This document shows, one piece after another, positions 28,150-33,176 of a stretch of DNA of 33,176 nt (positions are counted from its first letter, which is position 1; every line of letters begins with the position of its first letter). Source of the stretch: Oscillospiraceae bacterium. Lineage in GTDB: Bacteria > Bacillota > Clostridia > Oscillospirales > CAG-272. The notes below the pieces were generated by a model that had not been told where the DNA came from, did no database searches, and saw only the letters and a list, made by a program, of their open reading frames with translations. The DNA lies in assembly GCA_015064285.1 (NCBI GenBank), contig SVSN01000028.1, positions 1 through 33,176 on the forward strand. Direction: 5' to 3'. A program made the translations under genes and the position numbers.

Positions 28150-28183
28150 ACTTCTTATATCTTACTTCTTATTTCTTATTTTA
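28150..28183 (-). repeat. Heptad repeat array A5, after the cysC-cysQ gene
   Basis: Minus-strand units AAAATAA, GAAATAA, GAAGTAA, GATATAA, GAAGTCC; the first unit contains the last Lys codon and TAA stop of the fusion gene. Confidence 0.8.
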
Positions 28184-29615
28184 TATCACTTGTGTCCAGC
28201 GCCGATTCCGGACGGTTGAGGATTCTGAATCCGTTCCGGTTGATGGGATCCGCACGGTTGGCGGCAAGGGGATTTCCGTTTATGTCGGTAAAGGATGCGC
28301 CTGCTTCTCTGCACAGAATTTCCATGCCGGCAGTATCCCATTCTTTCATGAAGGCACCCCAGCGGTAGTGAATGTCGGCTTCCCCTTCGGCAATCAGACA
28401 GCCCTTGAGACAGCTTCCCGCCGTGAGAATATCACCGATCCGGTCCTTGTTGATTTCCAGCAGGGCTTCCGTCTGTTTGTCCCCGTGGGAGCGGCTGGCC
28501 GTAATCCGCAGGTTTTCGGTTCTGGCGGATACATGAATCTGCTCTGCCGGATCAAAGAGGGAAGCGATCCCGTTCTCGCCCATATTTTCCGTAATCACGG
28601 TCTTATAAGCGCCCCGGCCTTCATATGCATAGTACAGCAGACCTCTGGCCGGAACTGCTATAACTCCTCCCACAACCCTATGATGGGCGGCAAAGCCGAT
28701 GGACACGCAGAATTCTCCGTTGCGGTTGATGAATTCCTTGGTGCCGTCCAGGGGGTCGATGATGAAGGTGCCGCAGCCGTTAAGCCGTTTCGGAATGTCG
28801 TGGGGATCTCTGTCGCTGTCGTCCTCTTCTTCCGTGAGGATGTCATATTCCGGGAAAACCGCACGGAAATGCTCCGTGATTACTTTGTTGGAAGCAGTAT
28901 CCGCCGTGGTCAGAGGAGAAGCATCTTCCTTAAAGGAAACCTCGTATGTGCCGTTGTAGATTTCCAGAATTGCCGCTGAAGCCCGGGCAGCCGCCTTCGC
29001 CATTTCGGAAAGCAGAAACGCTGGCCGGCATACACTGTCCATGGCATGATCAAAGAGATGTTTCGCGCATTCTTCCACCGAACTGTTCACGGTGTCCAGG
29101 GTAATATCCGGGCTCACAGGCACTTCGTAAGGCGCGCTGACGCCGGTGAAAGCGGGGATTTCACCCGCATAGGCTTTTTTGTATAGTCCCTTGGGATCCC
29201 GTCTGGCGCATTCCTCCACCGGTGTGGATACGTACACTTCGTAAAAATCCGCGGCAGGAGAGATGATAGCGCGTGCCCTGTCTCTGGAAGCCTGATCAGG
29301 AGAGATAGCGCAGACCACTACGATCTGTCCGGAGGACGCAACGATTTTTGCCGTTTCCGCAATGCGGCGCAGATTCTCACTCCGGTCTTCCGGGGAAAAA
29401 CCAAGTCCGGCACAGAGACCGGTGCGTACTGTATCGCCGTCCAGCATGAATGCGGCATACCCTTCCGATACACAAAGCGCTTCAAAAGCGGATGCAATGG
29501 TGGATTTACCGGAACCGGAAAGACCGGTCATCCAGAAAACCACGGGACGGCTGTGTGTGATCCGCAGTCTGTCCCTGCCTTCAACCCGGGAAAGATACGG
29601 TGTAATATTTGCCAT
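28176..29615 (-). CDS. APS kinase-PAP phosphatase fusion (CysC-CysQ)
   Basis: A 479-residue bifunctional protein. Residues 1 to about 192 are APS kinase, which phosphorylates APS to PAPS: P-loop G-L-S-G-S-G-K-S-T (31-39), M-L-D-G-D-T-V-R (57-64) and the lid K-G-L-Y-K-K-A-Y-A-G-E-I (142-153). Residues from about 200 are a CysQ-type 3'(2'),5'-bisphosphate nucleotidase that removes PAP: T-E-E-E (261-264), D-P-L-D-G-T (287-292) and W-D-T-A-G (426-430), all metal-binding inositol monophosphatase family motifs. ATG 29615 has GGAGG 5 nt upstream and matches the kinase N-terminus; the open frame continuing to 30137 is not coding. First gene of the operon behind a consensus promoter. Both active sites appear intact. 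Confidence 0.94.
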   Translation of the reverse strand: MANITPYLSRVEGRDRLRITHSRPVVFWMTGLSGSGKSTIASAFEALCVSEGYAAFMLDGDTVRTGLCAGLGFSPEDRSENLRRIAETAKIVASSGQIVVVCAISPDQASRDRARAIISPAADFYEVYVSTPVEECARRDPKGLYKKAYAGEIPAFTGVSAPYEVPVSPDITLDTVNSSVEECAKHLFDHAMDSVCRPAFLLSEMAKAAARASAAILEIYNGTYEVSFKEDASPLTTADTASNKVITEHFRAVFPEYDILTEEEDDSDRDPHDIPKRLNGCGTFIIDPLDGTKEFINRNGEFCVSIGFAAHHRVVGGVIAVPARGLLYYAYEGRGAYKTVITENMGENGIASLFDPAEQIHVSARTENLRITASRSHGDKQTEALLEINKDRIGDILTAGSCLKGCLIAEGEADIHYRWGAFMKEWDTAGMEILCREAGASFTDINGNPLAANRADPINRNGFRILNRPESALDTSDIK

Positions 29616-29691
29616 GGGCACCTCCAACGGAAACAGGGCTCGCCGGATCAAAAACGGGAACGGTTTCCTGACGGTATATTTATACAGATAC

Positions 29692-29720
29692 ATTATAGAT
29701 GTTAACACGGGGGATGTCAA
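29692..29720 (-). promoter_or_regulatory. Consensus sigma-A promoter of the sulfate activation operon
   Basis: Minus strand: TTGACA (29720-29715), 17-nt spacer, TATAAT (29697-29692), 77 nt before the cysC-cysQ ATG. No terminator is seen until 22701, so it may drive all five genes. Confidence 0.92.
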
Positions 29721-29791
29721 CCATACAGCGGAAATTCCATCGGAAAAAATCAAATTTTGACGATACCTGCGGAAAGGGAAGGAGAGCACAT

Positions 29792-30148
29792 ATGACCCAT
29801 TACGGCAGACCTGCTGCTGAAAACAATCCAAAATCCCCATCCCCTCAAATCCTGCATACTGCCGCCGGACGAATTCTGGCTCTGGGCTGCGCCATGATCG
29901 CCGGATTCTTTCTGACAACAATACTCCCTGCAGAAGAGGTGGAAAAAACTGCTTTCCCGGAGGGAAAAATGCCTGCAGAAGGGGTGACGGCAGTGATGCA
30001 GATGACAGTGCCGGAGCGGGAAATGCTGGCGGTACAGACCGGGGAGGAGAATACCGCCGGAACGGGAGCGGAACCATTTGGCTATCTGGACGGCACATGG
30101 AATCTCTGGGAATACATCGGAGATCTGATGTGGTCACTGCTGTCCTGA
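29792..30148 (+). CDS. Small single-pass membrane protein, partner of the M50 protease
   Basis: A 118-residue protein with a cytoplasmic N-terminus (about 1-24), one transmembrane helix (about 25-46, R-I-L-A-L-G-C-A-M-I) and a short outer part with Glu-rich and hydrophobic stretches. It overlaps the next gene, an M50 protease, by 19 nt. By position and topology it could play the role of SpoIVFA, the membrane regulator encoded directly before SpoIVFB in Bacillus, but the LytM domain of SpoIVFA is missing, so this is an inference from context. ATG 29792 has AAGGAG 8 nt upstream. No clear sigma-A promoter is seen before it. Confidence 0.65.
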   Translation: MTHYGRPAAENNPKSPSPQILHTAAGRILALGCAMIAGFFLTTILPAEEVEKTAFPEGKMPAEGVTAVMQMTVPEREMLAVQTGEENTAGTGAEPFGYLDGTWNLWEYIGDLMWSLLS

Positions 30149-30669
30149 AAAGTCCCGCGGCAGTTCTGCTGCTGGCGGTGTTTCTGACGGGCGGGCCATG
30201 GAAGGCCTTTTTCGCGGCACTGTTTTTTCATGAACTGGGGCACTGTATCGGCGCGCGGCTGGTCGGAATTCCGCTGCGGCGGCTGGCTGTCGGAACCGGC
30301 GGTCTGCATCTGGATTTTGCCATGGAGACAGCATCCTATAAAAAAGAGCTGCTGGTACTTCTTTCCGGCAGCGGACTGGGACTTCTCACTTTATGCTTCC
30401 TGCGGGATCCGGCCTGCCGTGCCTGTACACTGTGCCTGAACCTGGCAAACCTGCTGCCTCTGCCCGGACTGGACGGCGGCGGCATTCTGGCCTGTCTGCT
30501 GCAGCAGCGTCTGGATGCCGACCGGGCTGACCGGATCTGCAGAGGGGTATTCACAGCAGCGGCGGTTCTGCTGTGGACCTGCGGTATGTGGATTGTCCTG
30601 CGGGTAGGGCCGAATCCGATGTGGATGCTCTGCGGCATGGCGGCGCTGTTCCAATTAAGCAGTAAGTAG
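30130..30669 (+). CDS. M50 family intramembrane metalloprotease (SpoIVFB-like, minimal)
   Basis: A 179-residue membrane protein made almost wholly of hydrophobic helices. The zinc motif H-E-L-G-H is at 34-38 and the second site N-L-L-P-L-P-G-L-D-G-G at 107-117 (Asp115). This is the site-2 protease pattern; SpoIVFB of Bacillus cleaves pro-sigma-K in the mother cell. It lacks the C-terminal CBS domain of Bacillus SpoIVFB and is about 110 residues shorter. The start is the GTG at 30130 (GGAG at 30119-30122, 7 nt spacing), which overlaps the upstream gene by 19 nt, suggesting coupled translation; ATG 30097 lies deeper in the upstream gene and lacks support. The stop sits inside heptad array A6. 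Confidence 0.8.
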   Translation: MVTAVLKSPAAVLLLAVFLTGGPWKAFFAALFFHELGHCIGARLVGIPLRRLAVGTGGLHLDFAMETASYKKELLVLLSGSGLGLLTLCFLRDPACRACTLCLNLANLLPLPGLDGGGILACLLQQRLDADRADRICRGVFTAAAVLLWTCGMWIVLRVGPNPMWMLCGMAALFQLSSK

Positions 30670-30742: not shown

Positions 30743-31930
30743 TCAGTCTTCGTCGTCAATATCTACTTCCACGTCAACATCTATGTCAATATCAATATCA
30801 TCATTGCTGTCCTCGTCAATATCAATGTCGTCTGTCTCGTCATATTCCGGGGCATTGCCGAGAATTTTTACGGTATCCGCGATGATGTCACCGTTGGCAT
30901 CCCCATTGATTTGGACAGTTTCGGCGTCGTCGATGTCGCCTTCCATGTTGCCTGCGATCTGTACCGAACAGGATGCGGTAATGTCTCCGGAAACATCGCC
31001 GCCGACCGTACAGTCGGAACAGTCTATATCTCCGTTGATATCTCCTTCGACCGTACAACTGCTGCAGTCCGCATCACCGTTGATATCTCCCCCAATGGTC
31101 AGTTCACGGCAGTCTATATCACCGTTTACATCTCCCTGTACGGTTACGGTTTCGGCACTGTTGATATCGCCTTCCACATTGCCGCCGATGGAGAGAGGAC
31201 TGTCTGTCGTTACATCACCGCCGTTGACCGAGCCGTTTATGGCTGCCTGCCCGGAGAAAGTGGCATCTCCGTTTATGGAACCGCTGATCGTGGCGCCTCC
31301 CGAGAGGGTGAGATCCCCATTGACGGAACCGGTAATGCTGGCGCCGCCGGAAATACCGCAGTCTCCGTTGATTTCTCCGTTTATAGTGGCACCGCCGGAG
31401 ATGGCGACATCCCCGCCGATCCATTGGCCGATATTCGCGCCTCCTGAGATCGCTGCATCGCCTTCCACATTCCCCCGGATTTCCGTGGTGAAGGCACTGG
31501 ACAGGTTATGGCAGTTTCCTTCCAGTACAATGATGATCTGCTGCCGGATATCCGCCGGAATCTCCTGCATTCTGACACCGTTTTTCTCCAGTACAATGGT
31601 ATAGTCACAGTTTTCCGACAGGTCTGTGATCCGATACTCTGTCTGTATTCCGGTGCAGGCAGATTTGTCTCCGGCACGGGATTGATGTCTGTATTCCGGC
31701 TGGGTTTCCAAAGAATCTTTTTCTTCCGTTCCCAGCAGTACGCCTGCGGTCTGACCGAAGATTTCCGCCAGGGCAGGCAGGGTCAGTATATCCGGCAGGG
31801 TCTCGCCCCGTTCCCATTGGGAGATGGCCTGATGGCTTACATGAAGTCTGTCTGCCAGTTCTGTCTGGGTCAGTCCCGCTTCCTTACGCAAAGCGGCGAT
31901 GTTCTGGCCGATGGTATATCTGTCTGTCAT
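30743..31930 (-). CDS. XRE-type regulator fused to a bactofilin-like beta-helix and acidic tail
   Basis: A 395-residue three-part protein. Residues about 6-60 are a helix-turn-helix of the XRE/Cro-C1 type (I-A-A-L-R-K-E-A-G-L-T-Q ... S-H-Q-A-I-S-Q-W-E-R-G). A linker (about 65-148) follows. Residues 150-358 are about 13 imperfect 15-16-residue repeats of the type G-D-x-x-x-S-G-G-A-T-I-x-G-x-I-N and later G-D-I-N-G-D-x-D-C-S-x-C-T-V, as in bactofilin or other polymer-forming beta-helices; four late turns carry Cys. Residues 364-395 are almost only Asp, Ile, Val and Glu. No membrane segment, so it should bind DNA and perhaps polymerise in the cytoplasm. ATG 31930 has AAAGG about 9 nt upstream. 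Target genes unknown; autoregulation is plausible. Confidence 0.85.
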   Translation of the reverse strand: MTDRYTIGQNIAALRKEAGLTQTELADRLHVSHQAISQWERGETLPDILTLPALAEIFGQTAGVLLGTEEKDSLETQPEYRHQSRAGDKSACTGIQTEYRITDLSENCDYTIVLEKNGVRMQEIPADIRQQIIIVLEGNCHNLSSAFTTEIRGNVEGDAAISGGANIGQWIGGDVAISGGATINGEINGDCGISGGASITGSVNGDLTLSGGATISGSINGDATFSGQAAINGSVNGGDVTTDSPLSIGGNVEGDINSAETVTVQGDVNGDIDCRELTIGGDINGDADCSSCTVEGDINGDIDCSDCTVGGDVSGDITASCSVQIAGNMEGDIDDAETVQINGDANGDIIADTVKILGNAPEYDETDDIDIDEDSNDDIDIDIDVDVEVDIDDED

Positions 31931-31980
31931 GGTATGTATCCTTTCCGAATTGGATGTTCCGCAGCGCTTCCGGTGATTTC

Positions 31981-32009
31981 AGTATACAGGACGCCGTGTA
32001 ATTTGTCAA
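31981..32009 (-). promoter_or_regulatory. Sigma-A promoter P1 of the regulator gene
   Basis: Minus strand: TTGACA (32009-32004), 17-nt spacer, TATACT (31986-31981), 50 nt before the ATG. Confidence 0.88.
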
Positions 32010-32040
32010 TCAAGCATTTGTTGCACGTTTGTTCTCCTTT

Positions 32041-32069
32041 ATTATACCGCCGGATAACCGGTTTTGCAA
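32041..32069 (-). promoter_or_regulatory. Upstream promoter P2 with AACCGGTT palindrome in the spacer
   Basis: Minus strand: TTGCAA (32069-32064), 17-nt spacer, TATAAT (32046-32041). The spacer contains the palindrome AACCGGTT (32056-32063), a possible operator. It gives a second, longer transcript for the regulator gene. Confidence 0.7.
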
Positions 32070-32090
32070 GTGTTGCTTGCAGAAAGGAGC

Positions 32091-32102
32091 AGAACCGGTT
32101 CT
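32091..32102. promoter_or_regulatory. 12-bp palindrome AGAACCGGTTCT, candidate operator
   Basis: A perfect palindrome containing the same AACCGGTT core as the P2 spacer, with centres 37 bp apart. It lies between the regulator's promoters and the divergent gene at 32148. Confidence 0.5.
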
Positions 32103-32147
32103 GGCTGCATATGCTGTAGGGAAGTCATCAGAATCATCGGAGGGCTT

Positions 32148-32699
32148 ATGAACGAAATGCCTGGAAAAGGACAACTGAGAATCTGGACAACGGAAGCGGG
32201 GGGCTCCCTGCCGGTACGTGGTGTGCCGGTGCAGATCCGGAATGAAGGCGGGGAACTGCTCCATGTACTGCGAACCGGGGAAAGCGGTCTGACGCCAACG
32301 GTTGCACTGCCCGCCCCGGCTGCCGCAGAAAGTCAAAGACCGGGAAGTGCGGCAAGACCGTATGCAGCCTACATTGTGTCTGTGGAAATGTCGGGATATC
32401 AGCCGGTCAGGGAACTGACAGTCCCCATTTTCGATGGAATTACTTCTCTCCAGCCCATTACCCTGCTGCCCGCTGCTGCCGGGAGTGCACCGCAGGGACA
32501 GCCGTATCTGGTCTATCCGGAGGTGCCCTACATCCGACTGCGTCAGGGCAGTGTTACCCCGGAAGATCCGATAAACGAAAGAGACGGCAGACGTCCTCTG
32601 ACCAATACGCTGGACAGCGAGGACATACCGGATTTTGACGAAGGAGAAGCATTTCTGGACGACAACGATCTGCCGGAGTATGGGAGGGACATAGAGTGA
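32148..32699 (+). CDS. Hypothetical protein with transthyretin-like domain, upstream of the SpoIID-like gene
   Basis: A 183-residue protein I cannot name. Residues about 6-110 have the strand pattern of a carboxypeptidase regulatory/transthyretin-like beta-sandwich: G-Q-L-R-I-W-T, L-P-V-R-G-V-P-V-Q-I and the later Y-I-V-S-V-E-M-S-G-Y-Q-P-V. The remainder is extended and rich in Pro, Asp and Glu (D-S-E-D-I-P-D-F-D-E-G-E). There is no signal peptide or membrane helix. ATG 32148 has GGAGGG 3-4 nt upstream; ATG 32157 is an alternative. Its stop overlaps the next start (GTGA), so it is translationally coupled to the SpoIID-like gene and probably works with it. Confidence 0.65.
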   Translation: MNEMPGKGQLRIWTTEAGGSLPVRGVPVQIRNEGGELLHVLRTGESGLTPTVALPAPAAAESQRPGSAARPYAAYIVSVEMSGYQPVRELTVPIFDGITSLQPITLLPAAAGSAPQGQPYLVYPEVPYIRLRQGSVTPEDPINERDGRRPLTNTLDSEDIPDFDEGEAFLDDNDLPEYGRDIE

Positions 32700-33176
32700 A
32701 CAGCGGCGCACTGCTTCCATACATTCCGGAAACGGTGACAGTGCATCTGGGGCCGCCCGGCTCTGACGCACCCAATGTGACCGTGCCGTTTACGGACTAC
32801 ATCAAAAATGTGGCATCCAGCGAAATCTATCCCACCTGGCCGGACGCCGCCATCCGTGCCAATATCCTTGCCCAGATCAGCTTTACCCTGAACCGGATTT
32901 ACACCGAATACTACCGGAGCCGCGGGTATGCTTTCGATATCACCAACTCTACCGCCTACGACCAGTCTTTTGTAAACGGCAGGGATATTTTTGACAATAT
33001 CTCCCAGACTGTGGATGAGATTTTCAACACCTATATCCGTCGGGAAAACTCCGTAGTGCCCCTGTTTGCCGCCTACTGTGACGGGGTGGAAGTGCAGTGC
33101 AATGGACTGTCCCAGTGGGGAACCGTGCCGCTGGCAGAGGCCGGGCTGACGCCTTTTGAGATTCTGACCCGGTTTT
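32696..33176 (+). CDS. SpoIID/LytB-like protein, N-terminal part (runs off the window)
   Basis: The frame is open for 160 codons to the window edge. Residues 29 to about 160 match the SpoIID fold: Y-I-K-N-V-A-S-S-E-I-Y-P-T-W (35-48, Glu43 at the catalytic glutamate position), two cysteines (128 and 135) in Y-C-D-G-V-E-V-Q-C, and G-L-S-Q-W-G ... A-G-L-T-P-F-E-I-L at the end. SpoIID is a lytic transglycosylase of the sporulation engulfment machine; in C. difficile SpoIID two cysteines bind zinc. No signal peptide is present, so this may be one of the clostridial relatives with a C-terminal peptidoglycan-binding domain. GTG 32696 has GGAGGG 7 nt upstream and overlaps the previous stop. Confidence 0.75.
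   Translation, partial: MNSGALLPYIPETVTVHLGPPGSDAPNVTVPFTDYIKNVASSEIYPTWPDAAIRANILAQISFTLNRIYTEYYRSRGYAFDITNSTAYDQSFVNGRDIFDNISQTVDEIFNTYIRRENSVVPLFAAYCDGVEVQCNGLSQWGTVPLAEAGLTPFEILTRF

Follow-up and report, generated by a model that had tools for sequence, protein, structure and literature searches.

Described systems close to the locus analyzed here tie a helix-turn-helix (HTH) protein to a bactofilin-like protein, as in the Cap0037-Cap0036 pair of Clostridium acetobutylicum and the yhbD-yhbE-yhbF operon of Bacillus subtilis. In the available excerpts of the respective sources, Cap0037 binds the promoter of its own operon, mutation relieves the repression of that operon, and Cap0037 and Cap0036 are abundant at a 1:1 ratio (PMC5050335); yhbD is a suspected regulator of its own operon (PMC12837462). 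Bactofilins themselves have a core of ~110 residues and a conserved phenylalanine at the C-terminal polymerization interface (PMC12448750, as excerpted). A further point of comparison is the Toastrack domain (DUF4097/DUF2154/DUF2807) of PSP and Lia systems, a beta-helix found on varied N-terminal domains and thought to be regulatory; it is coupled there to membrane, HAAS or SHOCT-like domains, the DNA-binding domains being encoded by genes of their own (PMC11237479, in the parts available).

The window considered here, the whole 33,176-nucleotide stretch of Oscillospiraceae DNA that was analyzed, contains a single gene whose product joins an XRE-type HTH to a bactofilin-like beta-helix (Table 1).

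Table 1. Positions of features in and around the HTH/beta-helix gene
Feature	Position	Strand	Remarks
Coding sequence, 395 aa, ATG start	30743..31930	-	XRE HTH, module, bactofilin-like beta-helix and acidic tail
HTH_3 DNA-binding domain, residues 1-70	31721..31930	-	Recognition helix HVSHQAISQWE
Variable linker, residues 71-104	31619..31720	-	Low identity, high dN/dS, low pLDDT
Conserved module, residues 105-157	31460..31618	-	YTIVLEKNGV...IIIVLEGNC...FTTEIRGNV; alignment A3
Beta-helix, residues 158-358	30857..31459	-	About 13 turns (predicted)
Turns with Cys 274, 289, 292, 304, 307, 321	30968..31111	-	Probably alternate with core residues
Asp/Ile/Val tail, 32 residues (364-395)	30746..30841	-	Predicted disordered, not conserved
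Sigma-A-type promoter P1 (putative)	31981..32009	-	TTGACA-17-TATACT
Operator-like site O1, weaker	32009..32025	.	Matrix score 8.7; abuts P1 -35, one base shared
Promoter-like match P2	32041..32069	-	TTGCAA-17-TATAAT; 5/6 bases of -35 within O2
Operator O2 (predicted)	32065..32081	.	Perfect palindrome TGCAAG-N5-CTTGCA; only exact copy in genome assembly
-10-like CATATGCT of divergent operon	32108..32115	+	Next to O2 region; regulation putative
Divergent CNA-like protein gene	32148-32699	+	Label coined in this analysis; no Pfam match
Divergent SpoIID/peptidoglycan-binding protein gene	32696 on	+	Cut at 33176 by window end

Two features of the gene's surroundings are noted in passing. An ORF at 28176-30137 (minus strand), whose true start is probably internal, combines an APS kinase with an inositol-monophosphatase domain that is presumably CysQ-like; with the adjoining PAPS-reductase-type and EF-Tu-like GTPase genes it makes up a sulfate-activation cluster. 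At 29699-30669 (plus strand), convergent with the HTH gene, a gene for a short membrane-type protein overlaps one for an M50 peptidase, and this pair stays near the HTH gene in L087-L090; L088, whose contig ends there, retains just the M50 gene.

Architecture and constraint of the fused protein

The protein matches Pfam HTH_3 at residues 11-60 with 58.3 bits (cut-off 23) and Bactofilin PF04519 with 67.6 bits (cut-off 27.9), bearing out the first-pass annotation, which had placed an XRE HTH and about 13 bactofilin-like turns in one chain and had located them correctly. The HTH domain has a lambda-repressor-like fold; PF04519 is matched at E 0.01 by six of the eight proteins in alignment A1. Along residues 149-360 the autocorrelation of identity is highest at lags of 16 (0.32), 32 (0.28) and 15 (0.20); in 500 shuffles of the residues it never rose above 0.185, whatever the lag. 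At the DNA level just a weak 6-base tandem repeat is present, in the tail, suggesting that the helix is an old protein repeat.

The predicted structure is a series of short strands up to residue 356, with a mean pLDDT of at least 90 in every 10-residue block from 181 to 330, and it superposes on the Thermus thermophilus bactofilin subunit (6rib) at 1.8 Å over 91 residues. The predicted fold is the right-handed beta-helix of solved bactofilins, and the same fold is predicted for a member from Bacilli, L014 (87 residues at 1.9 Å against bactofilin). Predicted confidence drops below a pLDDT of 50 in the linker (residues 72-96) and in the tail (residues 364-391, predicted disorder). The tail (16 D, 4 E, 6 I, 3 V, and one each of T, S and N in the final 32 residues) is short in L010 and has no counterpart in L009 or L011; a functional role for it is not supported.

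Simple counting on one pair, the window copy and the 70%-identical L009 copy, gives dN/dS values of 0.03 for the HTH (the part under strongest constraint), 0.44 for the linker (37% identical to that of L009), 0.13 for the module and, within the helix, 0.12 for its first half and 0.40 for its second, this last being the least sure value, since repeat alignments can slip. The faster late turns, together with chain lengths that span 192 to 824 aa across 38 members (the long ones with helical or proline-rich linkers, as judged by eye), could be explained if the beta-helix were a passive, fast-changing rod or spacer, the HTH alone mattering and the repeat growing and shrinking without specific function. 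The constraint on the module and on the first half of the helix argues against this, as do the retention of the HTH with the helix in 17 of 17 loci examined from the wider family and the spread of the fusion to a Bacilli member with the same predicted fold (see below), and we regard a passive rod as unlikely.

The cysteines of the late turns had been proposed to stack into a ladder sensing metal or redox state. They occur in the contexts D-C-R-E-L, D-C-S-S-C, D-C-S-D-C and A-S-C, and a 15-residue spacing recurs in the window protein, L087 (= L009), L088 (= L010), L014, L015 and L106; repeat proteins, however, tend to space any residue in this way. In the predicted strands C274, C289 and C304 lie two residues after I272, A287 and I302, and C292 and C307 two before V294 and V309: alternating with core residues, the cysteines should face the core. 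They also lie in the faster-evolving second half of the helix, and two of the 38 members (L101, L156) lack Cys altogether beyond residue 100. A metal or redox sensor of this kind is therefore extremely improbable.

Distribution of the fusion

The fusion of HTH and beta-helix is widespread, not a one-off, and extends from Clostridia to Bacilli. A scan of genome contigs returned 13 matching loci: seven have the HTH in the same frame (L009-L015, recorded under Clostridia, Bacillota, Clostridiales and Bacilli), and the remaining six have a beta-helix match without HTH. Within the genus, the module is present in 16 of 25 genomes, as a single full-length copy in each; the five genomes with completeness of 90% or more and contamination of no more than 5% all have it; in a 17th genus genome (G211) the HTH part is cut by a contig end. 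The genome containing the window has one HTH/beta-helix gene.

PF04519 was found in 42 of 196 family genomes, above cut-off in 31. In a family sample the A3 model matched 44 of 395 genomes, 13 belonging to the genus and 31 lying outside it; 17 loci from these 31 (L142-L158) have the HTH in frame without exception (17/17; shortened in L145), and several match the later part of the model alone, i.e., the first helix turns. In a phylum sample the model matched four of 398 genomes, the window's own included, and the other three frames were without an HTH match; since the A3 model may miss members such as L014 and L015, the number of class members beyond the family is to be read as a minimum. As to a phage origin, the module plus helix had no match in 50,697 phage records, and none of 14 pattern matches in viral contigs was confirmed as a relative. 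Among plasmid records 127 matched, none over more than 80% of the query, and the best 20 of the 127 cover only residues 1-98. In L073 and L016, a similar glycine-rich beta-helix carries, in place of the HTH, an N-terminal domain that by eye looks SHOCT-like.

One possibility is that the protein is a one-component signal sensor: module and beta-helix would dock at a membrane or envelope component, much as Toastrack may do, stress would release or capture the HTH, and the gene's own promoter would be the read-out. The constraint on the module (dN/dS 0.13) and the occurrence of a similar beta-helix on the short SHOCT-like domain of L073 and L016 are consistent with this; the available portion of a PSP survey proposes for SHOCT-like domains an anchoring role at the inner membrane face and for Toastrack the role of an assembly platform beneath the membrane (PMC11237479). 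Against it, no membrane segment is apparent by eye in the 395-aa protein, none of the neighboring genes is constant across all 16 genus loci, and no Toastrack domain (DUF4097 and kin) is among the Pfam matches listed with E up to 10, a result with which a distant member is still compatible. A sensor of this type is conceivable, if somewhat unlikely.

A conserved palindrome and its probable recognition

In the 450 bases upstream of 17 genes (that of the window and L087-L102), 33 AAG-N5-CTT palindromes were found, with a site before every gene (17/17); 200 dinucleotide shuffles gave a mean of 0.85 and a maximum of 3. One palindrome, in L090, is probably due to chance and was dropped, leaving 32 in the matrix. 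When perfect 6-base arms with spacers of 0-12 were compared, a spacer of 5 was commonest (20), followed by 7 (13, a count that partly re-counts spacer-5 palindromes). Sites were also found after the matrix had been built, in L199 and in L012, L013, L014, L015 and L157; the family locus L145, whose start codon is uncertain, was excluded from upstream scans. An Rfam scan of 31900-32200 returned nothing above gathering score. These comparisons establish a conserved palindrome, the predicted operator, at the gene's own putative promoters.

The sequence of the palindrome varies with that of the recognition helix, which is the strongest check on the predicted operator. Where the helix contains HQA, CAAG-N5-CTTG is found upstream in 18 of 18 loci from Clostridia to Bacilli, including the Bacilli loci L014 and L015. 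Loci with SQWE (n = 22) have CAAG-N5-CTTG 22 times, in 18 loci, and CAAC-N5-GTTG not at all; those with SKWE (n = 14) have CAAC-N5-GTTG nine times, in nine loci, and no CAAG-N5-CTTG, the exact CAAC form being absent upstream of the other five (shuffle means for these counts, 0.085-0.095). Where SQWE goes together with PQA or AQA (four loci), CTAAAG-type variants stand in place of an exact site, and two of the 38 loci (L103, L143) fall outside both groups, with neither site upstream. Both motifs were picked after inspection of the upstream regions, and close kinship among many of the loci makes the counts non-independent. From this co-variation of recognition helix and half-site we infer that the XRE domain binds the palindrome; the DNA binding put forward in the first-pass annotation draws its support from this phylogenetic footprint.

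Among the XRE paralogues in the same genome (L002-L008), three of the four SKWE ones, all without beta-helix, also have CAAC-N5-GTTG upstream. Because these paralogues share the site, the footprint informs on the HTH and is silent on the beta-helix, and it suggests that the code may be a property of the HTH subfamily, a recognition-helix-to-operator code readable at large.

Targets of the predicted operator

Allowing one mismatch, TGCAAGN5CTTGCA occurs in the window's own genome at one perfect and four one-mismatch places, the latter equal in number to those for the reversed control pattern (4); a genome-wide regulon was accordingly rejected. The assembly is ~73% complete, so some targets can be missing. 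Across 17 genus genomes, 15 of 19 exact TKCAAGN5CTTGMA sites lie before the HTH/beta-helix gene and four elsewhere (G099, G196, G202, G203); an exact match is missing from five of the 17 genomes. The reversed control gave 34 places, more than the 19 true ones (24 of the 34 in G199, G204 and G214), and it is therefore the location of the sites, not their count, that serves as evidence.

The divergent operon encoding the CNA-like and SpoIID/peptidoglycan-binding proteins was read at first as a co-regulated target, an idea that failed a split-genome test. The corresponding alternative, that the fused protein regulates this operon and is perhaps a keeper of sporulation genes, has the genomic arrangement in its favor: 13 of the 16 genus loci have the operon as divergent neighbor, as do L102 and L199, the intergenic region is shared, and Spo0A is encoded in the same genome. 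A -10-like CATAnnnT precedes the operon in most of the regions scanned (window, L087-L102), often with AC ~16 bases 5' of it, an arrangement that we take to resemble a late mother-cell sporulation promoter; the window's own copy, CATATGCT, is presumably sigma-K/E-like by consensus. Where the operon is separated from an HTH protein present in the genome, however, no site scores above 12.5 (0/3; L193, L194, L195), nor does any in four genomes that have the SpoIID gene and in which the HTH/beta-helix gene went undetected (L196, with another HTH gene without beta-helix nearby; L197; L198; and L200, in which the CNA-like gene was not found). Conversely, L100 retains three operators without the operon as neighbor. 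Since the operon is site-less when apart and L100 keeps its sites, the HTH/beta-helix gene itself is the sole supported target, and control of the operon appears very unlikely.

Operator spacing offers a further hint. Three sites above threshold are present in 11 of the 17 loci (the window has a strong site and a weak one). O1-O2 distances (n = 14; L087, L089 and L090, with one site above threshold each, are left out) are 35-36, 45-46 and 56, in steps of ~10, with L102 an outlier at 33; O2-O3 distances (n = 11) are 121-123, 131-134 and 142-144, i.e., bands ~10.5 bases apart. One extra weak site in L091 was removed by hand. Phase R is 0.90 and 0.86 for these spacings and 0.12, or no phase, for the spacing of O1 and the start codon. 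L199, found afterwards, agrees (36 and 143), and, when loci are compared, the stretch from O3 to O2 shows 41-65% identity. On a tree of the SpoIID-like protein, with a spacing label on 12 of 20 rows, the O2-O3 classes need just two changes, and for this reason the phasing is counted as a hint. A third site above 12 is confined to proteins of at least 468 aa, in which length and ancestry are inseparable because these proteins are related. The phased arrays may thus fit cooperative or looped binding in long-form relatives; the clustering of operators envisaged in the first-pass annotation keeps slight support locally, from these three-site arrays, and loses it genome-wide, where one perfect site was found.

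The reading we favor, and consider probable, is autoregulation: an XRE dimer would bind TGCAAG-N5-CTTGCA at its own promoters and limit its own synthesis, with the beta-helix as the working or self-association part of the chain. It is favored because the perfect site occurs once in the genome, before the HTH/beta-helix gene. Binding would repress, since O2 covers one -35 and O1 abuts another. By joining dimers laterally, at their ends or on the surface of a partner, the beta-helix might make binding cooperative; long-form relatives, which have three operators in phase, might also bind with looping. The simplest use would be for a polymer- or scaffold-type protein to gauge its own free pool: free protein would repress, and assembled or docked protein would not. 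A more elaborate version, which we think quite unlikely, has the filament-forming and gene-control parts of a cytoskeletal-type protein working in one chain, such that assembly of the beta-helix withdraws the HTH (or joins it on DNA), the polymer reports its own mass to the promoter, and long forms bridge phased operators.

Comparison with known systems

The HTH domain has the fold of XRE/Cro-CI regulators, and P22 c2, SinR and ImmR are among its best matches; the C-terminal parts of these proteins are not known to be beta-helices. The likeness to bactofilins (PF04519; 6rib, Caulobacter BacA) lies in the predicted right-handed beta-helix and a Pfam score far above cut-off. The helix of the 395-aa protein, however, has ~200 residues in 13 turns, well over the bactofilin core; there is no Phe in residues 226-395 to match that of the bactofilin interface, nor in the last 60 residues of 33 of the 38 members; and, by eye, an HTH (MTDRYTIGQN) occupies the N-terminus, where bactofilins have a membrane-targeting peptide. 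As it differs in these three tested features, the protein is not filed as a canonical bactofilin: its way of working reads instead as that of an XRE autoregulator to which a bactofilin-like helix has been joined.

The pairing had been called little described, and the available parts of the literature searched, on bactofilin architecture, distribution and transcription and on XRE plus beta-helix, hold no description of a fused HTH/bactofilin protein. The analysis supplies a function hypothesis for a protein class without a description in that literature. If it is right, many gut Clostridia and some Bacilli would have a DNA-binding switch and a filament-type beta-helix in one chain, with its own gene as chief target, and this would be a clean test case for direct transcriptional read-out of the assembly of a cytoskeletal-type protein.

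Both Cap0037-Cap0036 and yhbD-yhbE-yhbF differ from the present case in being divided between two genes and in having another HTH class, in place of a single chain with an XRE domain. From their motifs, Cap0037 and YhbD would belong to the DUF4004 HTH class, and the genome containing the window has a gene of that class as well, overlapping a 238-aa bactofilin gene (contig C44, 968-2100). The occupation by Cap0037, the HTH partner of a bactofilin-like protein, of its own operon promoter supports autoregulation here, and the self-regulated Cap0037-Cap0036 operon is, by analogy, the nearest precedent, of which the fused protein would be the one-chain counterpart.
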